This document shows positions 1,358 through 37,348 of a stretch of 37,348 bases of DNA, one piece after another. The notes beneath the pieces are model-generated. The model ran no database searches, was not told where the DNA came from, and saw only the letters and a program-made list of their open reading frames with translations. A program made the position numbers and the translations under genes. The number at the start of each line of letters is the position of its first letter. Positions within the stretch are counted from its first letter, which is position 1. This DNA is from a bacterium (lineage in GTDB: Bacteria; AUK180): assembly GCA_023144005.1 (NCBI GenBank), contig JAGLGN010000003.1:1-37348 (forward strand). Reading direction: 5' to 3'.

Positions 1358-1386
1358 TTGAAATATGTAGAATAATGGTTTATAAT
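1358..1386 (+). promoter_or_regulatory. sigma70-like promoter of the EIIA/PII/antiporter operon
   Basis: TTGAAA (1358-1363), a 17-bp spacer, and a consensus TATAAT (1381-1386). The predicted start is near 1393. That leaves a leader of roughly a dozen nt carrying GAGGTGAG before the ATG at 1405, which supports that start over the longer open frame that begins at 1297. Confidence 0.75.
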
Positions 1387-1404: not shown

Positions 1405-1857
1405 ATGAAGATCATTGATATCACAACTGAAAATGACATCGTAATCAAGAAGGGCCTGAACTCCTCAGATGATGTGCTGGATTTCACTGCCGGACTGTTT
1501 TTTCAAGATGAAGGAATGAAGAAGGTCATCTTCAAATCATTCAAAAAGAGAGAGAAGATCTCCTCTACTGGAGTAGGCAATGGCATCGCTATACCGCACG
1601 CTATCTGCAAGCAATTTCCGGGTGTCAAGGCCAAATTGATCGTCGTGCCTGAGGGTGTACCGTTCAACGCTTCAGATGGGAAACCCGTTTTTCTCTTTGT
1701 AGCCATCGCAGCGAATATCGACCTTCAGAAGAATTACCTTTCCCTCCTGTCAAATGTTGCGAGGATCTTCGCGAATGAGGGAATAATCGCGGACATTCTT
1801 ACCGCTGAAACGCCATCAAGGATATTAAAGATAGTCGAGGATAACTGTAAAGTATGA
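1405..1857 (+). CDS. PTS EIIA (fructose/Ntr-type) domain protein
   Basis: A stand-alone 150-residue EIIA domain of the mannitol/fructose/PtsN class. The phosphorylatable histidine is visible in GNGIAIPHA (His65 with the start at 1405). There is no transmembrane EIIC or EIIB nearby, so it is more likely a regulatory EIIA of the PtsN kind than a sugar transporter subunit. The ATG at 1405 is chosen because it follows a GAGGTGAG ribosome site and a near-perfect promoter ends at 1386; upstream codons of the frame lie inside the promoter. It is first in a four-gene operon and overlaps the next gene by ATGA at 1854-1857. Inference: its phosphorylation state controls the two downstream antiporter-like proteins, in line with PtsN control of K+ transporters in enterobacteria. 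Confidence 0.85.
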   Translation: MKIIDITTENDIVIKKGLNSSDDVLDFTAGLFFQDEGMKKVIFKSFKKREKISSTGVGNGIAIPHAICKQFPGVKAKLIVVPEGVPFNASDGKPVFLFVAIAANIDLQKNYLSLLSNVARIFANEGIIADILTAETPSRILKIVEDNCKV

Positions 1858-2195
1858 TAGGATTCCTCATTGTCCTTAAACAGGATAGTCATCTGGATGA
1901 TATCCTTTCCACTCTGGCAGAATTGGAAGTTTTCGATGTGACCGTCATGGAAGGAAATAATCTTGAGGGAATACTGGAAAAGGACCTCCCTCTTTTTGCA
2001 GGGCTCTTCTCATCCATCAATCGAAAGAACCTGTACGGTGAGGTAATACTGGGGGTATTCCGCAGCGATTCTCTCCGCCATGCATTCAACAAGATCATCG
2101 GTAAAAAAGGGATCTCTTTCAAGGATCCCGGTGTTGGGTACATGGCTTCCTTTAACCTCATCTCCTTCATTGGAGAAGAATTAGTTGATAACTAA
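1854..2195 (+). CDS. small PII-like (ferredoxin-fold) protein
   Basis: A 113-residue soluble protein. Its start, MIGFLIVLKQDSHLDDIL followed by LAELEVFDVTVMEG, follows the beta-alpha-beta pattern of PII/CutA-like regulators (strand, helix, then a TVMEG-like strand). Residues about 34-62 would be the T-loop-like insertion, and GEVILGVF (about 62-69) the next strand. I do not see a canonical PII T-loop tyrosine or the classic nucleotide motif, so PII-like is a fold guess. It is translationally coupled to the EIIA gene (ATGA overlap) and to the downstream membrane protein (11-nt overlap). Inference: a sensor or gating subunit for the antiporters. Confidence 0.55.
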   Translation: MIGFLIVLKQDSHLDDILSTLAELEVFDVTVMEGNNLEGILEKDLPLFAGLFSSINRKNLYGEVILGVFRSDSLRHAFNKIIGKKGISFKDPGVGYMASFNLISFIGEELVDN

Positions 2196-3210
2196 ACTCT
2201 CTCTTCTCATATCTTTCATTCTCTTTCTTTCATTCCTGGAGAACCGATTCAAGTATTTCTGGGTGAAGGACCGTAGGATCCTTTTTCTTCTGCGGACCAA
2301 GATACATTTCATCTTCATCGGTTTCCTTCTAAGCGCTTTCGTATTCAGAGAGGGATTATTCCCATTCTTCAGAGATATCTCCTATACCATTGTCACATTA
2401 TTGGGATTCACTTTCGGATTTCAACTCAGGGAGAAATTCATCAAAAGATTTGTCTTCTCTTCGATACTGGGAACATTGATAAAAAGCGCGGCGATCCTTG
2501 TCGTCATTTACTTTCTCGCGCTTCTTCTGACGGGCGACAGCGTACTTGCGGCTTTCACTGCGGTAGCATTCGGCTCCGTCTCATATTTTCTGATCTTTAT
2601 CACAAAAAACAGATTTATCCCTGATTATATCTTCAATCTCCTGACCACATTTCTATTTATCTTTGCTGTTGAAAACCTCAATTCTTCGATCTTGGATATC
2701 GCGATCACCCTTATGATAATATTCGGGTTTTCCTTTCTCTTCTTTTTTCTGGCGGGAAGACGGAAGAATGTGGAGTTGTATATCGTTGTCATTGCGGTCA
2801 TTCTGCTGGTTTCAGGATTCACAAAACAATTGGGGCTCGCCGGACTCTCCATTTCCTTCTTTATCGGAATGATAGCGACCAATATGGAGTTCCCTTCCAA
2901 AAAGGCCATTGAGAATACTCTTATTGAAATGGAAACTCCTCTCTTCGCATTTCTTCTTTTTTCACTGGGGCTAGTCATAACAATGCCGGACCCTCTCATG
3001 CTCGGATTTTTCTTCGGCATGTGGATCCTGGGAATATTACTGGGCAAATTGATACATATCGACTTGAGAAATCACATCCCGGTTTCACAGATATCCATAC
3101 TCTTCTTGACAGGATCTATAATGGAAATCTCAAGACCCGTGATCACCTCATTTCTTATTACCTATACTATTTCCAATATTGCTGTCCTCGGGGTGAAGCG
3201 AAATGATTAG
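2185..3210 (+). CDS. antiporter-like polytopic membrane protein
   Basis: 341 residues, almost entirely hydrophobic, with roughly ten to eleven membrane segments. The start is a TTG at 2185 with GGAGAAG (2172-2178) at good spacing; no better start fits. It resembles CPA-type Na+/H+ exchangers in length and in a LAGLSISFFIGMIATNMEF stretch (about 212-230), which is like the sixth-to-ninth helices of these transporters. However, the TM4-TM5 signature with its catalytic aspartate is not evident: the region around AAFTAVAFGSVSYFLIFITKN has no Asp. It overlaps the next, better-matching antiporter gene by 8 nt. Inference: a degenerate or regulatory subunit of a heteromeric exchanger, or a transporter of another ion. 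Confidence 0.6.
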   Translation: MITKLSLLISFILFLSFLENRFKYFWVKDRRILFLLRTKIHFIFIGFLLSAFVFREGLFPFFRDISYTIVTLLGFTFGFQLREKFIKRFVFSSILGTLIKSAAILVVIYFLALLLTGDSVLAAFTAVAFGSVSYFLIFITKNRFIPDYIFNLLTTFLFIFAVENLNSSILDIAITLMIIFGFSFLFFFLAGRRKNVELYIVVIAVILLVSGFTKQLGLAGLSISFFIGMIATNMEFPSKKAIENTLIEMETPLFAFLLFSLGLVITMPDPLMLGFFFGMWILGILLGKLIHIDLRNHIPVSQISILFLTGSIMEISRPVITSFLITYTISNIAVLGVKRND

Positions 3211-4453
3211 AGAGATAATCGGCCTGGTCATTATTATTTCTATTAATCTTTATATACATTTGGCAGGGATAGAAATGAATCTGCTTTTCGATCTGGGTCT
3301 CCTGATCAGCGGAGCTTTCCTTCTTGGTGAATTATTCCACCGCATCAAGCTTCCGAAGGTATCCGGCTATCTTATCGTCGGAATATTAATGGGCCCCTTC
3401 GGCAGCAATGCAATAGACATTAGAATGGCGGAAGATCTGCAATTTATCGATATGATCACATTAACCATAATCGCCTTCATTGTCGGCAGAGAGCTCTCGA
3501 TAAAACGCTTAAAGAAAGATATTAAGGCTATATTTATCTACACCTCTACTGTGATCATTGTAACATTTATCGCAATAACTCTCTTCTCCTTCTGGCTGTA
3601 CCAAGTGAATCCCTTCATGGGGCCTCAGAGCTTCCGAAATACGCTGATAATAGCCATGATATTCGGTTTTATGGCATTAGCGAAATCACCACTCACAACC
3701 GTTGCGCTGCTTAAAGAAACCGGAGCATATACAAGGACTCCTCTTTTGATCCTCTCGATAACGGTTCTAAAGGACATCATAGTCCTGATATGCTTCGCTG
3801 CCTTCATGGCTCTTTTGAAAGGCTCCGGCAACGGAGGCATGGCAAAAACATCATGGGAGATATTCGGCTCTTTTCTGATCGGTGGAGGTGCGGGAGCTTT
3901 GTCGCTCTTGTATCTGAAATTCATTCGAAGACAGAAACTCCTGATGCTTTTGGTTCTGGCAATATTGATAACCATTATCTCAAAAGCGCTCCATGTGGAC
4001 AATCTTCTGGTAGCGATCACCGTAGGATTTATTATTGAGAACTTCTCTGATCTGGGAGAGGAATTCCTTGATGATATCGAAAAGATCGCCACCTTTATCT
4101 ATATTCTCTTCTTTGCCATCAGGGGGATAAATCTGGACTTGAACGCGGTGAGAAACACATGGCTCATAGCGGTTATTCTGATCGTGATGAGAACGATCAT
4201 TACCTATTATACTCTGATGGTGGCGTCAAAGATACAAAAGGATCCGCCGAATATCTATAAATACGGCTGGAGTGGTTTTATCAACCAATCAGGCGTGACC
4301 CTGGCGATGGCATTGATCATAAGTAATACATTCCCTCAATTCGATGCTCTAGTGGCCATATGTATTTCAATGATCGTTATCACTGACATTGTGGCACCGC
4401 CGATATTCAAAAGGCATCTCCTTAAAATCAAGAAGCTGGAAGAGGAGATCTGA
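3203..4453 (+). CDS. cation:proton antiporter, CPA family
   Basis: 416 residues with about twelve membrane helices, a Na+/H+ or K+/H+ exchanger-domain protein of the inner membrane. Seen: the N-terminal helix pair LLFDLGLLISGAFLLGELFHRIKLP and GYLIVGILMGPFG typical of CPA2. The TM4 region reads ALAKSPLTTVALLKETGA, where many relatives have S/T-D-P or SSP. TM5 has LSITVLKDIIVLICF, in which the conserved Asp is kept but preceded by Lys instead of Asn or Asp. There is no C-terminal TrkA-N/C domain, so regulation may come in trans from the EIIA and PII-like proteins. It is last in the operon; the ATG at 3203 overlaps the preceding stop. A 9-bp-stem hairpin follows the stop at once. Confidence 0.85.
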   Translation: MIREIIGLVIIISINLYIHLAGIEMNLLFDLGLLISGAFLLGELFHRIKLPKVSGYLIVGILMGPFGSNAIDIRMAEDLQFIDMITLTIIAFIVGRELSIKRLKKDIKAIFIYTSTVIIVTFIAITLFSFWLYQVNPFMGPQSFRNTLIIAMIFGFMALAKSPLTTVALLKETGAYTRTPLLILSITVLKDIIVLICFAAFMALLKGSGNGGMAKTSWEIFGSFLIGGGAGALSLLYLKFIRRQKLLMLLVLAILITIISKALHVDNLLVAITVGFIIENFSDLGEEFLDDIEKIATFIYILFFAIRGINLDLNAVRNTWLIAVILIVMRTIITYYTLMVASKIQKDPPNIYKYGWSGFINQSGVTLAMALIISNTFPQFDALVAICISMIVITDIVAPPIFKRHLLKIKKLEEEI

Positions 4454-4473: not shown

Positions 4474-5197
4474 GGTGCAAAAGAGATCGTTCAAAAGTTG
4501 AAAAGTTCAAAAGTTCAAGGTTGAGAAATAGGAAATAGATGATAGGGTGATAAGATGATAGGTTTGTAGGTGGAGAAAAAGGAAAGGAGATGGATTCTTC
4601 AGTCGCCACCGCTTCAATCAGAATGACATTCAAAGAAGTGTGAAGAGTGTTTGCGCATGATTCTATACCCATTCTCCCTCCACCCGCCCAGGTGATTCTG
4701 AGTCATAAATAAGATGGCAATGGCTGATGCTCTTTTGCTACGTATTCAAGGCACGAGGAACGCTGCATACCCAGCGCGGTCTGTAAGCGACGAGCAACGC
4801 AGAAGACATAGAAAGAGCTTCAGTCCGAAGGTAATCTCATCTTTGGTCAATTTCTTCCTCTCTCTTCGCTAGCGTACCACCAAGGGTACGCCGCACTCAT
4901 TGTTCGTTGGAATTGGCTCAAATCTAAGTAATCCATTGTTATCGTATTTAGGACTCAGAACACCATTCTCCAGGGACGGAGGTGGTGAATTTTTCAACCA
5001 ACTTATTTGTCTAAATTGGATGTATGAAGTTAAAATATTCAACCTCCCGTCCCGTAGGCTGAGCGCTCCAACGTTCTATTATTTTAACGGATAATTTTAA
5101 TGAGATAAACGAAATAACTATTTTTCGGTTACGGATGTGCTTTTTTTCCTTCCCTACCAAGCTCTAGCCTCTAGCCTCCTGCCTCTTCTTTAATTCC
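4474..5197. repeat. mosaic non-coding island between convergent antiporter genes
   Basis: No convincing gene is seen. From left to right: an octamer-like tandem array at 4489-4531 (units AAAAGTTG/AAAAGTTC), identical over 43 bp to 6533-6575; a GATAGGGTGATAAGATGATAGG run (about 4540-4561), whose reverse complement recurs near 18370-18404; a GGATTC...GAATGAC REP-like module (4590-4628); the inverted-repeat element 4691-4964; a 49-bp module (5091-5139) with an inverted copy at 28263-28311; and heptamer units GCCTCTA/GCCTCCT at 5162-5188. The short open frame 4900-5094 crosses these repeats and is not gene-like. Confidence 0.7.
4691..4964. mobile_element. inverted-repeat-bounded non-coding element (type copy)
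   Basis: The left end (4691-4723) and right end (4933-4964) are imperfect inverted copies about 32 bp long, alike at nearly every position apart from one indel and a few substitutions. The 270-bp interval encodes no transposase. Inside is a GCGTACC/GGTACGC hairpin (4872-4891). Related ends occur at 6707-6730, 18240-18263, 18454-18483, 22480-22510, 23839-23870, 28165-28188, 28549-28574, 32295-32325, 36919-36938, 36948-36979 and 37194-37225. I call it a candidate non-autonomous element; movement itself is inferred, not seen. Confidence 0.5.
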
Positions 5198-6463
5198 TCA
5201 TTTCTTTTTTGAGATCTCGGTCTCCTGCGGGACCTTATGGAAATTTGAAAAGAAGAGATAATAGAATTTTCTGATAGGAGAGGGCAATTCCAATGAGGTT
5301 ATCAGTAATGCATTCAAAACGATGGAAAAGAGTATTACCGAATAGACGAAATTCTGCGCGGCGGTATCGTTTATAAGTCCCAATTCAAACGGAAGGGTCG
5401 CCAAGACCGCAGCAGCCAGGCCCTTGGGCACCATTACAGCAATGGTGGAGGCATCCCGAATATTGATCTTTTTAGGAAGAAAGAACTTCACCACAAGCAT
5501 TCGGAAAAGGAAGATCACAACCGTTACCAACAGTCCGTACATCATATTTCTCAGCTGAGAGAAATTTATTGAAAGCCCGAGATAAACAAAGAAAAAGATC
5601 TTCAATAAGAAAACAAGCTCCTGGAAGAAGAGCTTCTCTGATGACTTCAATCTCGCGAAAGTAAATTTATTCAATACACCGGGAGTTTCTTCCGGCATCT
5701 TATGCATATTTGAGAGGGTTATTCCGAAAGCGAGAGCGCTGATCGCACCGTTAAATCCGAAGAATTCCGTAATGCCGTAAACAATAAATATAAATGCGAC
5801 CGTCGAAAAGAGATTATTGGGAAATTCTCGGATCTTGGATAGGAGAACCGACCAGATAGCTCCGCCGCCAACTCCGAATATGGTGGACACTATCAGGGTA
5901 GAAAGGATATTGCCGAGGATCAATCCCGTTTTCAAATGCCCTATCGTCAAGGCATTGATCAAAGAGAAGGTTACCACGATAGCGAGAACATCCGTGATGG
6001 CGGATTCCATGAAGAGCACGGTGAAGGGTAAATTACCGATCTTCAAATTCTTCATGACCGGAACAACGACAGCGGAAGAAGTACCGCCGAGGATCGAGCC
6101 TACTATTGCTGACTGCATGACATTAAGGCCAAGAATATAATATCCGAAGAACCCAGCTGCGGCCATCGTCAAAACGAATGTGGGAATAGTTATCAATAAG
6201 GTCTCATCCCATGCTGAACGGAGGATCTTCAGATTTAAGCCGGTACCGCCCTCAAAGAGAATAACGACCAGAGCAATGGTCGTAAGTATGCTTCCGAATC
6301 TTCCGAAGTAATCGGCGGAGGTAATATTGAGTAGTTTTGGGCCTATCAGAATGCCCAGGACCATAAGAAGCAGGACATCCGGGATTCGTGTTTTTTTGAA
6401 AAGTATCGTAAATGAATATGCCAGAAATACTAAAAGTCCGAATAGAAATATGTGCTCACCCAT
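5198..6463 (-). CDS. Na+/H+ antiporter, CPA family
   Basis: 421 residues with about twelve to thirteen membrane helices, a sodium/proton exchanger-domain protein. Seen: RIPDVLLLMVLGILIGP near the N terminus; TM4 as GGTSSAVVVPVMKNL; and TM5 as MESAITDVLAIVVTF, with the essential Asp preceded by Thr rather than Asn or Asp, which suggests electroneutral exchange. TM11-12 carries IAVMVPKGLAAAVLATLP, like the conserved RGxxxx helix of CPA1. A short charged tail ends the protein. The start ATG at 6463 has GGAGG at ideal spacing. The gene is monocistronic with its own promoter (6482-6510). It is not closely similar to the antiporter at 3203 in its signature helices, so it is not a recent duplicate. 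Confidence 0.88.
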   Translation of the reverse strand: MGEHIFLFGLLVFLAYSFTILFKKTRIPDVLLLMVLGILIGPKLLNITSADYFGRFGSILTTIALVVILFEGGTGLNLKILRSAWDETLLITIPTFVLTMAAAGFFGYYILGLNVMQSAIVGSILGGTSSAVVVPVMKNLKIGNLPFTVLFMESAITDVLAIVVTFSLINALTIGHLKTGLILGNILSTLIVSTIFGVGGGAIWSVLLSKIREFPNNLFSTVAFIFIVYGITEFFGFNGAISALAFGITLSNMHKMPEETPGVLNKFTFARLKSSEKLFFQELVFLLKIFFFVYLGLSINFSQLRNMMYGLLVTVVIFLFRMLVVKFFLPKKINIRDASTIAVMVPKGLAAAVLATLPFELGLINDTAAQNFVYSVILFSIVLNALLITSLELPSPIRKFYYLFFSNFHKVPQETEISKKK

Positions 6464-6481
6464 TGAGTTTCCTCCGATATG

Positions 6482-6510
6482 ATTTTACATTAAAAAGATG
6501 GGGATTTCAA
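6482..6510 (-). promoter_or_regulatory. sigma70-like promoter of the antiporter gene
   Basis: On the minus strand: TTGAAA (6505-6510), a 17-bp spacer, and TAAAAT (6482-6487). The GGAGG ribosome site and ATG follow within about 20 nt. Confidence 0.65.
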
Positions 6511-6730
6511 CAATTAGTGCGTGGAGAAGATTGTTCAAAAGTTGAAAAGTTCAAAAGTTCAAGGTTGAGAAATAGATAACAGGGTTGTAGAATGATAAGG
6601 TGATAGGCTTAAGTATAGTGAATAGTGAACAATGAATAATGCAGAGGGAGGATACCCGGATCTCCTTTCTTCTCCCCACTTTACACTTCACACCTCACAC
6701 TTCACACATCGTACTTATGAATATTATCAG
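6511..6730. repeat. mosaic non-coding island with 43-bp repeat and heptamer array
   Basis: This stretch holds the 43-bp sequence 6533-6575, identical to 4489-4531. It is followed by a GATAAGGTGATAGG run, then a heptamer array at 6677-6706 (CACTTTA, CACTTCA, CACCTCA, CACTTCA). The right-end copy of the dispersed element (6707-6730) runs into the lepA stop codon. No matching left end is clear here. I see no gene in it. Confidence 0.65.
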
Positions 6731-8526
6731 TCGACCTTAAGGACATTGATGAACGCTTCCTTCGGCACATTAATATTACCGATGGCGCGCATCTTCTTCT
6801 TTCCGGCCTTCTGTTTCTCCAATAGCTTTCTTTTTCTTGTGATATCGCCGCCGTAGCACTTGGCGGTCACATCTTTTCTCATGGCGGAGATCTTTTCTCC
6901 GGCAACGATCTTTCCTCCAATAGCGGCCTGAAGCTTTATCACGAACATATGTCTTGGGATCTCTCCCTTTAATTTTTTAATGATCGCTCTACCGCGGGAT
7001 TCCGCGCAGCTGCGCTCAGCAAGGAAGGAAAAAGCCGGTACAGATTTTTCATTCATCTTAATATCGACCTTGACTATATTCGAGGTCCGATAATGAATAT
7101 TTGAATAATCCAGAGAGGAATATCCTCTTGTGACACTCTTCATACGGTCGAAGAAATTCGTGATCAGTTCACTCAACGGAATATCAAAATGCAGAATGAT
7201 CCTGTCATCTCCCAAATATTCGATATCTTTGCTCAATTTACCACGCTTTTCCTCGATGACCCTTATCAGGGGATCAACATAATTGATCCTACTCACGATC
7301 GTCGCGTTCACGATCGGCTCTTGAATATGATCGATCTTTACAGGATCGGGGTATGTCTCGGCACCGTGGATCTCAAGAATTTCCGAGTTCTTCATTATCA
7401 CTCTATAAACAACGGATGGGGATGTAAAGATCACCTCCGAATCAAAATGACGGCGAAGACGCTCGGCAACGATCTCCATATGAAGCATGCCCAGAAAGCC
7501 CGCGCGAAATCCAAAGCCCAGACTGGGCGAGGTTTCCGGCTTGTACTCCAGTGAAGAATCATTCAATGTCATTTTACCCAAAGAAACCTTGAGTTTTTCG
7601 TAATCCTCATTGTCTGTCGGATAGATCCCGGCATATACCATGGGTTTGACATGCTCAAAGCCCTTTAACGGCTCTCCGGGTTTTCCGCTTTTAAAAACCG
7701 TATCCCCTATGGAAACATCTTTAATATTCTTGATACCGGCGATCACATATCCGACCTCTCCTGTTTCCAGGCGTTCACAGGGAGTCATTTCCTCTTGAAA
7801 AGTTCCGACCTCGGATACCTCATACTGTTTCCCGGAAAAGTTGAGAATGAGTTTCTCGCCTTTGGAAATAGAACCGTCAAAGACTCTCACATGGAGGATA
7901 ACGCCCCTGAACATATTGAAATCCGCGTCAAATATCAAGGCACGGGTAATATCGGATTCTGAATCGGGTGGTGGCGGTATCTTCTTAATGATGGCTTCCA
8001 GAAGTTCATGGACATTTTCACCTGTTTTTGCGGAGATAGCGTAAACCTCTTCTTTTTCAAATGCGAAGGCGGCCTTTAACTCTTTATAACTTTCTTCCGG
8101 CCGAGCGGTGGGAAGGTCCATTTTGTTTAAGACGGGGATGATCTCAAGATCCTGGTCAAATGCCAGATACATATGGGAAAAGGTCTGCGCTTCAAGCCCT
8201 TGCGTCGCGTCAACAAGCAATAGCGCGCCTTCGCAAGCCGCCAGGCTTCTTGAAACCTCATAGGAGAAATCAACATGGCCGGGAGTATCAATGAGATTCA
8301 ATTGATATACATTACCGTCATCAGATTGATATTGTAACGAGATCGGCTGCGCCTTGATGGTTATGCCCCTCTCTCTTTCAATATCCATCTTATCCAGAAC
8401 CTGGCTTGTCATCTTTCTTTCGGAAATACCGTGAGTGATCTCAATTACACGGTCCGCGAGTGTTGATTTTCCGTGGTCGATATGGGCAATAATTGAGAAA
8501 TTTCGAATAAAACGCGAAGAAACCAT
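6727..8526 (-). CDS. lepA: elongation factor 4 (back-translocating GTPase LepA)
   Basis: 599 residues, the normal LepA length. The G motifs are all present: AHIDHGKSTLADR (G1), RERGITI (G2), DTPGH (G3), NKMDLP (G4) and SAKTG (G5). They are followed by the beta-barrel, the EF-G-like III and V domains, and the LepA-specific C-terminal domain ending in RKKLLEKQKAGKKKMRAIG-type basic sequence. It acts on stalled or stressed ribosomes. It begins one base after the rho stop (rho ends 8528, ATG at 8526) with little Shine-Dalgarno, so translation is likely coupled to rho. Its TGA stop (6727-6729) coincides with the CTGA of a dispersed repeat end, so the repeat begins exactly where the coding sequence ends. 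Confidence 0.97.
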   Translation of the reverse strand: MVSSRFIRNFSIIAHIDHGKSTLADRVIEITHGISERKMTSQVLDKMDIERERGITIKAQPISLQYQSDDGNVYQLNLIDTPGHVDFSYEVSRSLAACEGALLLVDATQGLEAQTFSHMYLAFDQDLEIIPVLNKMDLPTARPEESYKELKAAFAFEKEEVYAISAKTGENVHELLEAIIKKIPPPPDSESDITRALIFDADFNMFRGVILHVRVFDGSISKGEKLILNFSGKQYEVSEVGTFQEEMTPCERLETGEVGYVIAGIKNIKDVSIGDTVFKSGKPGEPLKGFEHVKPMVYAGIYPTDNEDYEKLKVSLGKMTLNDSSLEYKPETSPSLGFGFRAGFLGMLHMEIVAERLRRHFDSEVIFTSPSVVYRVIMKNSEILEIHGAETYPDPVKIDHIQEPIVNATIVSRINYVDPLIRVIEEKRGKLSKDIEYLGDDRIILHFDIPLSELITNFFDRMKSVTRGYSSLDYSNIHYRTSNIVKVDIKMNEKSVPAFSFLAERSCAESRGRAIIKKLKGEIPRHMFVIKLQAAIGGKIVAGEKISAMRKDVTAKCYGGDITRKRKLLEKQKAGKKKMRAIGNINVPKEAFINVLKVD

Positions 8527-22455: not shown

Positions 22456-22479
22456 TATTATGCGTTATAATCCATAATT

Positions 22480-22510
22480 CCATTGTTAAGGTATTTATGA
22501 ATCTGAACAC
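22480..22510 (-). repeat. dispersed element end overlapping the prsW stop
   Basis: A right-type end copy (plus-strand order CCATTG...TATTTATGAATC...GAACAC). On the minus strand its TTCATAA supplies the last codons and the TAA stop (22495-22497) of the PrsW gene. The flanking gap to yjbQ is about 40 bp and otherwise shows nothing. Confidence 0.6.
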
Positions 22511-23163: not shown

Positions 23164-23879
23164 CTGCCTTCCTCCTCAAAAAAATAGCGTATGCTCCTAT
23201 CCAGAAGTACAAAGGTCACATTTGCGCCCAGAAGCCCGGACAGCTCTTTGCTGCGTTTGGCAGCTTGCTGCTTTCTGAGTTCCTCATTCGGGTGATTGAT
23301 CTTGAATATCGCTTCGATAAGCAGGGCCATATTCTGCTTGCTCCGTTCCTTGGCATACTTCGGGGAAGGCAGTTCTTTTCCCGCGGTGACGGCCTCAAGA
23401 TATCCGGAATATATGTTTTTCAAGCCATTGGCATTCGGATGAAAAGCCGAGATCTGACCAAGCAGATAACTTCCGAAAGCAGGTTCCGCATCCAGCGTCA
23501 GCCCAGCCATTCTATCATTCCAACAGGAGGGGTCATCACCCATTAATTTCAAAAGGGCGATTTCGCGTTCTTCTAATTGCTCGTTCAAACACTTTTTCAA
23601 CAGTATCGAATCCCTTAACACATCTTTGTCGCCATTCTTTACTCTGAATTCAAAAAGTTCCTCTCTTGAAATCGTGTATATAAGTCCGCTTATCAGTTTT
23701 GAAGATGGATCGGGGCTGCCCTTAAAGACAATATGCCGACCTGCATATTCCCAGATATGCAGAGGGCCGTAATGCTCTCTCTCATCAAAAAAGGGAAATA
23801 TTAATGAATCAAAGGGAAGTTCATCTAATCTAAGTATTCCATTGCCATCGTATTTATGAATCAGATCACCAGGAGTCAC
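23160..23879 (-). CDS. unrecognised soluble protein with repeat-derived N terminus
   Basis: 239 residues with no family I recognise; no signal peptide or membrane helix is seen. It contains two long helical stretches (about 85-115 and 190-225) and a PFFDEREHYGPLHIWEYAGRHI segment near the N terminus. The GTG start (23877-23879) overlaps the nadE stop by GTGA and no later ATG, GTG or TTG is apparent for many codons. The first residues after MTPG (DLIHKYDGNGILR) are therefore translated from a dispersed-repeat end (23839-23870 plus its flank). The ORF ends overlapping the prsW start. Its role is unknown but it is tied by translation to NAD synthetase and PrsW. Confidence 0.7.
   Translation of the reverse strand: MTPGDLIHKYDGNGILRLDELPFDSLIFPFFDEREHYGPLHIWEYAGRHIVFKGSPDPSSKLISGLIYTISREELFEFRVKNGDKDVLRDSILLKKCLNEQLEEREIALLKLMGDDPSCWNDRMAGLTLDAEPAFGSYLLGQISAFHPNANGLKNIYSGYLEAVTAGKELPSPKYAKERSKQNMALLIEAIFKINHPNEELRKQQAAKRSKELSGLLGANVTFVLLDRSIRYFFEEEGR
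23839..23870 (-). repeat. dispersed element end inside a coding region
   Basis: A right-type copy of the end sequence, with an extended flank to about 23827 that matches 4921-4932 (AATCTAAGTAxTCC). On the minus strand it lies in frame in the 239-residue ORF, a few nt after the nadE stop. Confidence 0.65.
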
Positions 23880-36918: not shown

Positions 36919-37348
36919 GTATTTATAGATCAGAACACTTCAAGATTGGTGCTCTGATTCAAAAATACGATGACAATGGAATGCTTAGATTTGAGGCAAT
37001 TCCAACGATAAATGCAGTCTGAAGTGTGAGGTGTAAAGTGGGAACCAGGATGAAATAAGGCAGGATCCCACGGCCGCAAGTTCCCTCTGGATGACATTCT
37101 CTTCTTCATTTCCTTCCCGCATCCGCTCATCGGGAGCCCGGCAGCGCCGGGCGACCAACCCAAAAGAGTTTTGAACCATTTAAATAAAATGCCAGTGCTC
37201 TAATACATAAATACAGGAGCAATGGCTGATGGTATTTTCTCTGCTTCGTCTCTCACCCACCTCGAGCACGGCGCAGCCGTGCGCCCAACCGAGAGTTCCG
37301 GAAGAAGTGAGCGATCGTTAGAGCTTTTAGAGGCAGGAACGAATGTTC
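36919..37348. repeat. mosaic island at the window's right edge
   Basis: A right-type end (36919-36938), then a left-type end with long flank (36948-37009, matching the reverse of 4903-4964), a GTGTGAGGTGTAAAGTG run (heptamer-type), a REP-like block (37058-37098), a GCCCGGC/GCCGGGC hairpin (37136-37152), another left-type end (37194-37225), and a GCACGGC/GCCGTGC hairpin (37266-37282). It runs off the window. The short minus-strand open frames 36930-37179 cross the repeats and are not supported as genes. Confidence 0.65.

Follow-up and report, generated by a model that had tools for sequence, protein, structure and literature searches.

The window, the whole stretch of 37,348 nucleotides analyzed here, carries at positions 1405-4453 of its forward strand four overlapping open reading frames in the order EIIA-PII-TMA-TMB, where PII stands for a PII-like small protein and TMA and TMB for the first and second of two membrane proteins. 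An earlier note on this DNA had described four overlapping genes under a near-consensus promoter, and both observations are borne out: the frames overlap by 4 nt (EIIA and PII-like), 11 nt (PII-like and TMA) and 8 nt (TMA and TMB), and a consensus scan places a sigma-70-like promoter, TTGAAA-17-TATAAT (1358-1386, forward strand), ahead of them with 11 of 12 consensus matches, by itself no proof of function. This site is the top-scoring of 20 promoter-like sites in 6 kb, for which shuffling expects 12.7, and transcription from it would give a 5' leader of only ~12 nt.

The first gene (1405-1857, +) encodes a 150-aa EIIA of the PTS_EIIA_2 family (PF00359, the fructose/nitrogen type of PTS EIIA; E 1.2e-25, 90.6 bits for a cut-off of 27), whose putative phospho-acceptor, His65, is part of an IPH segment alignable to PtsN chains of solved structure; the protein falls below the cut-off of the PtsN equivalog TIGR01419 (56.9 bits vs 138.7). 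The phospho-acceptor His is present in 71 of 72 EIIA rows from linked loci; the one exception is a fragment in which this segment is missing. The EIIA identity given in the earlier note is thus supported, and the protein is putatively phosphorylatable. EI and HPr were found in 16/16 genomes tested, and the window's own genome encodes both. We also identified a second locus in that genome, where a single protein joins an EIIA and a PII-like domain, the latter scoring only 15 to 20 bits with the PII profile, next to a DD antiporter.

The product of the second gene (1854-2195, +) has 113 aa and contains a D-[IL]-P-[IL]-F-A-G motif that is conserved. Its AlphaFold2 (AF2) model (pLDDT 77, pTM 0.69) adopts a ferredoxin-like bab-bab fold near solved PII chains: the top Foldseek match in the PDB is 1hwu (1.1e-4), comparison with PotN gives VIA Z 9.8 and rmsd 3.5 over 92 aligned residues, and SbtB and GlnK chains are also among the structural matches. 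At E 0.01, PF00543 matches 25 of the 33 aligned family members, with a best value of 8e-10; the 33 include the window protein, which itself gives no PF00543 match. The PII-like identity proposed from the letters alone thus survives structure prediction, and the model, its structural matches and the PF00543 matches of relatives rule out a small protein that is not PII-like. The conserved motif occupies the stretch equivalent to the PII T-loop, which in the window protein reads NNLEGILEKDLPLFAGLF and contains no Tyr; the canonical GlnB/GlnK T-loop carries a Tyr uridylylation motif.

TMA, TMB and their TM5 motif

TMB (416 aa; 3203-4453, +) is a membrane protein of the cation/proton antiporter (CPA) fold that matches PF00999 with an E value of 5.7e-36 (124.6 bits, cut-off 26.2) and, by profile, NHE6, 4cz8 (a putative Na+/H+ antiporter) and NapA chains. 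The PF00999 match stops at residue 404 of 416, and Pfam finds no further domain after it. Its TM5 motif carries Lys at position 6, Asp at position 7 and Thr, hence no base, at position 8.

TMA (341 aa, TTG start; 2185-3210, +) has no Pfam match above cut-off, PF00999 included, so its kinship with CPA proteins rests on its family. PF00999 matches 12 of the 24 members of the TMA alignment (best 5.9e-20), and the family profile matches TMB at 99.8% over 363 columns and, built from 24 rows, NapA at 8.7e-6; a five-row profile retrieved no PDB chain at E 1. The AlphaFold2 model of TMA from the five-row alignment (pLDDT 41, pTM 0.26) was excluded from all fold claims. Window TMA keeps the position-8 Lys and lacks an acid at positions 6 and 7, where its letters, Asn and Arg, are uncertain since the region is shortened there. 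Comparison with relatives, most of which have an Asp in TM5 that window TMA has lost, confirms that one of the two membrane proteins here lacks the TM5 Asp. Slightly downstream, window TMA has another Asp, in 'IPDYI'; it was considered as a substitute and rejected for lack of conservation, since the L006 relative has Val at that place.

A tree gathers the TMA in one group and the TMB in another, both with SH-aLRT 100%; on their sequences, they are separate ancient clades. All 33 adjacent TMA-TMB pairs read have TMA first, a count over related sequences uncorrected for kinship. With proteins classed as TMA or TMB by profiles built from the same sequence set, and rows of 280 residues or fewer dropped before counting, the TMA family has Asp6 in 46/56 members, Lys or Arg at position 8 in 54/56 and an acid at position 7 in 0/56, while the TMB family has Asp7 in 37/43, never an acid at position 6 (Lys in 28/43) and a base at position 8 in 1/43. 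The motif register agrees across separate alignments. Of the two CPA-like proteins described in the earlier note, both are assigned to the CPA fold, TMA by way of its family, but the uniform lack of a position-7 acid makes TMA more plausible as a partner that carries no ion than as a second antiporter.

For CPAs at large, the accessible part of PMC6181914 gives Asp164 as conserved in 94% and an Arg or Lys at position 8 in 95%. The portion of PMC9408914 available to us states that a transporter can remain functional when motif residues are replaced, Asp164 excepted, and treats what the Asp at position 6 and its salt bridge to Lys do as a matter of debate. The remaining six of 43 TMB, a Calditrichota subgroup, have Ser or Ala at position 7, which argues against TMB as the carrier there. 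Among PII-negative members of the phylum of G010, which we take to be Gemmatimonadota in GTDB, 14 TMB have Ala, Met, Thr or Gln at position 6 and none of these has Lys. A strict tie of Lys6-Asp7 to the PII protein was rejected, as the PII-negative Calditrichota G604 and G614 carry Lys.

Recurrence of the module across phyla

Among the 87 loci examined, 8 show the order EIIA-PII-TMA-TMB; they span three phyla, and two of the eight belong to a single genus. The arrangement is therefore neither chance nor peculiar to the window genome: what the earlier note took to be an unusual four-part version does comprise four separate subunits, but it is a recurrent module and not a local oddity, and the neighborhood search finds its gene order conserved elsewhere. 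Phylum names were assigned as Omnitrophota (L010), Calditrichota (L011 and L013) and Glassbacteria (L014). For the phyla of G007 and G010, the survey covered even samples of 285 and 298 genomes, respectively, out of larger groups, and 22 of 23 Calditrichota matches were fetched, the one left out (G605) having 49 residues only; a triple TMB (L103) and a TMA ahead of PII (L144) are overlapping-long-frame artefacts of the locus survey. In the open-access literature we found no published description of a module of EIIA, PII and CPA proteins. In the parts of these sources available to us, PMC5700660 concerns another system, in which PII genes adjoin NuoL/YbcC operons; PMC10710835 concerns LacS and cites SbtA; and PMC13104625, a PtsN review, mentions ptsN copies in kdp operons.

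TMA may act without TMB, as suggested by G477 (main contig 3.04 Mb, genome listed as 3.0 Mb) and G505, which carry EIIA-PII-TMA and no TMB at E 1e-80. These genomes, the ~20 loci of the G010 phylum in which EIIA-PII and TMA form a cluster without TMB, and the Lys/Arg8 kept in nearly all TMA would suit two independent transporters, TMA and TMB homodimers merely co-transcribed, with TMA serving another substrate or being a channel-like relative. We consider this unlikely: no TMA has the position-7 acid, the order of the 33 adjacent pairs is constant, and of the 22 G010-phylum genomes in which the regulators are linked to TMA but not to TMB, 20 encode TMB at another site, as compared with 2 of 16 genomes that have a lone PII gene.

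It is similarly improbable that EIIA-PII is a signaling unit with its own targets, for which the transporters are just one of several outputs. Such a unit would account for the 16 of 46 G010-phylum loci where PII stands with none of the other profiles, and for Calditrichota, where 21 of 22 loci have EIIA-PII without an adjoining transporter and a separate TMA-TMB pair occurs in 5 of 6 genomes fetched (in the sixth, G009, TMA lies at a contig end). In this phylum the word 'dedicated' rests on co-occurrence, the EIIA-PII pair standing apart from the TMA-TMB pair. However, a CPA protein adjoins the PII gene, in either order, in the window's own phylum, Omnitrophota and part of the G010 phylum, and PII and TMB co-occur (29/45 vs 40/253 genomes and 17/23 vs 2/17, uncorrected for relatedness). 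Since 40 of 253 PII-negative G010-phylum genomes have TMB, the pair can do without the PII protein.

A candidate heteromeric exchanger

We propose, at roughly even confidence, that the four gene products are a heteromeric cation/proton exchanger, in which TMB carries the ion and TMA does not, and its two metabolic regulators, EIIA and the PII-like protein. The four-gene order, the two clades with their constant pair order, the motif partition and the presence of TMB elsewhere in genomes with an unpaired TMA argue for this proposal, as do the separate Calditrichota TMA-TMB pairs, the fused EIIA-PII locus, the conserved EIIA His and the presence of EI and HPr. It is weakened by G477 and G505 with their unaccompanied TMA, by the TMB of PII-negative genomes, by the Calditrichota TMB with Ser or Ala at position 7, by the low-confidence TMA model and by the low PII-profile score of the fused domain. 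CPA antiporters are regarded as homodimers; TMA and TMB, which would trace back to an anciently duplicated CPA antiporter, probably assemble with each other instead, as a heterodimer. TMB, which keeps the essential ion/proton-binding TM5 Asp at position 7, would be the ion carrier, and TMA, which has lost Asp7 in all members read, its structural or regulatory half. Most TMA lineages keep Asp6 and Lys8, the residues of the core salt bridge of known CPA2 proteins, with Asp6 apparently lost as well in the window lineage. We also count in favor of this heteromeric exchanger the statements on Asp164 in the available parts of PMC9408914 (other motif residues can be replaced) and PMC6181914 (94% conservation). 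A stronger version, held more tentatively and at somewhat below even confidence, is an obligate heterodimeric CPA exchanger with its triad split between TMA (Asp6, Lys8) and TMB (Asp7), jointly gated by PTS and PII so as to integrate sugar/PEP with nucleotide state.

The TM5 Lys-Asp of TMB could instead form a neutral pair, so that an anion, a metabolite or only protons are moved and no cation is exchanged. The lack of a position-8 base in 42/43 TMB and the frequent Lys6 point this way, Lys not being among the position-6 residues (Asp, Glu, Asn, Gln) listed in the accessible part of the CPA classification paper (PMC6181914), but the strong PF00999 match, the profile matches to NHE6, 4cz8 and NapA, and Asp7 kept in most TMB make this quite unlikely. 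Least probable is that TMA has become a decaying protein without a role in the window lineage, as its length (341 aa vs ~400 in relatives), shortened TM4-TM5 region, missing acids at positions 6 and 7 and very long branch (3.13 changes per column for the window-type group) might suggest, since its frame is intact in three species and its identity is 97% within the genus and 45% to G004.

In the exchanger that we favor, EIIA would be phosphorylated via EI and HPr and thus report sugar/PEP state, its unphosphorylated form inhibiting transport if the sign of control follows that of PtsN on YcgO. The PII-like protein may bind a nucleotide or similar ligand and dock on the transporter, or on EIIA, through its T-loop stretch. 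The transported ion would be K+ or Na+.

This arrangement is reminiscent of the E. coli K+/H+ antiporter YcgO, where a separate PF00359 EIIA, PtsN, acts in a phosphorylation-dependent manner on a CPA antiporter (PMC11808508, in the part available), a control that is predicted here. YcgO is one polypeptide whose cytoplasmic C-terminal region holds RCK and CorC domains, CorC being the putative EIIA site, and the same part of that account names no PII protein and no second CPA subunit (PMC11808508); TMB, in contrast, has no RCK/CorC region and ends soon after its PF00999 part. An EIIA-CPA fusion, L227 (PF00999 and PF00359, 575 aa), likewise ties EIIA to a CPA transporter, but as a single chain with one CPA unit and no PII part by Pfam. 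SbtA-SbtB and AmtB-GlnK likewise pair a membrane transporter with a PII-superfamily protein, a partnership that is predicted here; their transporters belong to families other than CPA, we know of no EIIA involved in either, and the conserved motif in the T-loop stretch of the window protein differs from SbtB and GlnK. TMA and TMB have the fold family and TM5/TM10 motif positions of canonical CPA proteins (NapA, NhaA, MjNhaP1, NHE), which combine position 6, Asp7 and the position-8 base in one polypeptide, whereas here these are divided between two paralogues and TMB has Lys at position 6.

Judged by its genes, the module looks like a transporter under the energy- and sugar-state control of the cell, with two classic metabolic sensors, PTS EIIA and PII, brought together on a single transporter in bacterial phyla about which little is known. 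If this is true, a natural lineage has parted the motif residues into two subunits, which would make carrier and scaffold roles testable apart, and with the triad split by nature, motif residues that couple or carry could be told apart from those that only stabilize.

The four-gene operon and its EIIA

An earlier note had read a stretch of the window as four overlapping genes under one promoter, encoding an EIIA with a phosphorylatable His65, a PII-like small protein and two antiporter-like membrane proteins, here called TMA and TMB. We find that all four reading frames are real and that the overlaps are present (1405-4453, + strand). A promoter-like site lies upstream at 1358-1386, the top-scoring of 20 sites in 6 kb, where shuffles give 12.7 expected. 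The EIIA (1405-1857, + strand) matches PF00359 at 1.2e-25, and His65 falls inside the IPH stretch common to solved PtsN chains; 71 of 72 EIIA rows from linked loci keep the phospho-acceptor His, the remaining row being a fragment. Against the PtsN equivalog the protein reaches 56.9 bits, well below the cut-off of 138.7, which on sequence grounds makes it a member of the broad PF00359 family and not PtsN proper. EI and HPr were found in 16/16 genomes tested; in the window's genome they adjoin mannose-type IIB, IIC and IID genes, in a cluster (L165, 5003-11001, - strand) that encodes EI, HPr, mannose-type IID and IIC, a glycosyl hydrolase family 57 protein, then IIB.

EIIA domains also occur in fusions: an Omnitrophota CPA (cation/proton antiporter) protein of 575 aa carries one at its C-terminus (L227, 223-1950, + strand), as does a permease judged by eye to resemble amino-acid transporters (L221, 1471-3306, - strand). 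The window further holds dispersed repeat families of 34 to 72 nt, several of them intergenic, with best pairs 81 to 93% alike (4898-4969, 36943-37014, 23815-23871, 22477-22510, 4484-4538 and 6528-6582).

A CPA motif divided between TMA and TMB

TMB (3203-4453, + strand) matches PF00999 at 5.7e-36, and its profile matches NHE6, a putative Na+/H+ antiporter (4cz8) and NapA. PF00999 is also matched by 12 of 24 TMA members (best 5.9e-20), the window's TMA not among them, while the TMA family profile matches NapA at 8.7e-6 and comparison of the two family profiles gives 99.8% probability across 363 columns. The description of both as antiporter-like thus stands as far as CPA kinship goes, but TMA has no acid at position 7 of the motif (0/56).

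In the CPA numbering of PMC6181914 and PMC9408914, the ND/DD pair of TM5 occupies positions 6 and 7, and the Lys/Arg of TM10 is position 8. TMA proteins carry Asp at position 6 (46/56) and Lys/Arg at position 8 (54/56). TMB proteins have Lys at position 6 in 28 of 43 (acidic in none) and Asp at position 7 in 37 of 43, with position 8 basic in one, plus one His. Single CPA proteins of the same loci are DD in 16/17, and the register is consistent across HMMER to NapA, MAFFT and hhalign. As an exception, position 7 of TMB is Ser or Ala in six Calditrichota sequences. Asp6 is lost in two Omnitrophota TMA, in several TMA from genomes without PII in the G010 phylum (which we take to be Gemmatimonadota) and in the window's own TMA, the protein already suspected of lacking the TM5 Asp.

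In a tree of 116 CPA-fold proteins, whose root is arbitrary and in which the window's TMA sits on a very long branch, all TMA cluster together, as do all TMB, with 100% SH-aLRT support for either group; the duplication therefore seems to predate the sampled phyla. Among 33 adjacent pairs TMA always comes first, then TMB, mostly with overlap.

Three side observations concern related proteins. At 14 loci of PII-negative G010-phylum genomes (L249-L262), position 6 of TMB is Ala, Met, Thr or Gln, never Lys. One locus (L232, 3738-6596, - strand, genome G616) has one TMA followed by two TMB copies, the second with Leu-Asp at positions 6 and 7. The window also encodes a third CPA protein (5198-6463, - strand; PF00999 E 3e-45), convergent to the operon, which reads Thr-Asp at positions 6 and 7 and stands far from TMA and TMB alike.

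The small protein and its gene neighbourhoods

The window's small protein and TMA each lack a Pfam family above cut-off on their own sequence. An AlphaFold2 model of the small protein from eight sequences (pLDDT 77, pTM 0.69) has the order E-H-E-(T-loop stretch)-E-H-E; all 14 Foldseek matches in the PDB at E <= 0.001 are PII-type signalling proteins, including PotN and the Thermus protein TT1020 (named as P-II), and VIA-align gives Z 9.8 for PotN, 9.2 for CPII and 9.1 for SbtB, which count as tied at one Z unit or less apart. PF00543 is matched by 25 of 33 family members (best 8e-10), the window's not among them. Its predicted fold places the small protein among the PII proteins, as had been supposed. 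Its most conserved stretch, Asp44-x-Pro46-x-Phe48-Ala49-Gly50, lies at the place of the PII T-loop, the docking loop of GlnK; the Tyr motif of canonical GlnB is absent from the window's protein.

The window's genome has a second relevant locus (L229), encoding a 271-aa protein in which an EIIA is fused to a PII-like domain (6023-6838, - strand) directly upstream of a DD-type antiporter (4742-6019, - strand). The PII profile aligns along almost its full length with the C-terminal part, at a weak 15 to 20 bits; the sister species carries the same fusion protein. This lends weak independent support to the idea that EIIA and a PII-like domain act together next to a CPA protein.

Relatives of the small protein occur in 5/7 genomes of the window's phylum, and one scan of genome contigs gave seven loci in that phylum, Omnitrophota, Calditrichota and Glassbacteria. 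By profile search it is present in 14/285 Omnitrophota, 45/298 G010-phylum and 23/40 Calditrichota genomes. Neighbour genes, read at 87 loci, bear out the linkage in three phyla: the order EIIA-PII-TMA-TMB is present at 3/5 loci of the window's phylum (two from one genus), 1/14 in Omnitrophota and 4/46 in the G010 phylum, the last including L103, where overlapping frames show TMB three times. PII-TMA-TMB occurs at two Omnitrophota loci and one G010-phylum locus cut at its 5' side, and EIIA-PII-TMA without adjoining TMB at about 20 G010-phylum loci. EIIA and/or at least one DD-type antiporter precede PII at 10/14 Omnitrophota loci (one cut at the 5' end) and 2/5 of the window's phylum; EIIA-PII stands alone at 21/22 Calditrichota loci (four cut at the 3' side), and PII with none of the other profiles at 16/46 G010-phylum and 1/14 Omnitrophota loci.

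TMB, called at E 1e-80 or better, is present in 29/45 PII-positive vs 40/253 PII-negative genomes of the G010 phylum (Fisher p 7.6e-11) and 17/23 vs 2/17 in Calditrichota (p 1.2e-4), both among related genomes with kinship uncorrected. A regulator-linked TMA without linked TMB occurs in 22 genomes, 20 of which encode TMB elsewhere (G477 and G505 have none); TMB occurs in 2 of the 16 lone-PII genomes. The TMA-TMB pair is intact at 17 of 20 fetched loci from PII-negative genomes and a few further loci, the others being cut at the contig start (L251) or TMB alone (L262, L265). The transporter pair may thus have come first, the regulators joining it in part of the tree.

A proposed exchanger under two regulators

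The best-supported reading is a proposed heteromeric exchanger: TMB would carry the ion, and TMA would be a partner subunit without a carrier site. Unphosphorylated EIIA would inhibit the exchanger, by analogy with PtsN acting on YcgO (PMC11808508). A further, ligand-dependent brake would come from the PII protein via its T-loop stretch, by analogy with SbtB and GlnK. TMB is read as the carrier because passages of PMC9408914 and PMC6181914 treat Asp7 as the one indispensable residue; its TM4 letters in the window (Ala-Lys-Ser-Pro) fit none of the signatures that passages of PMC6181914 give for Na+ or K+.

All the parts come from families already known, and there are precedents for either kind of control; a description of the EIIA, PII and TMA/TMB set was not found in the open-access papers searched, which is not proof of absence. 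What a specialist would find surprising is that the CPA motif has stayed split over two paralogues and that EIIA and PII would both act on a single transporter.
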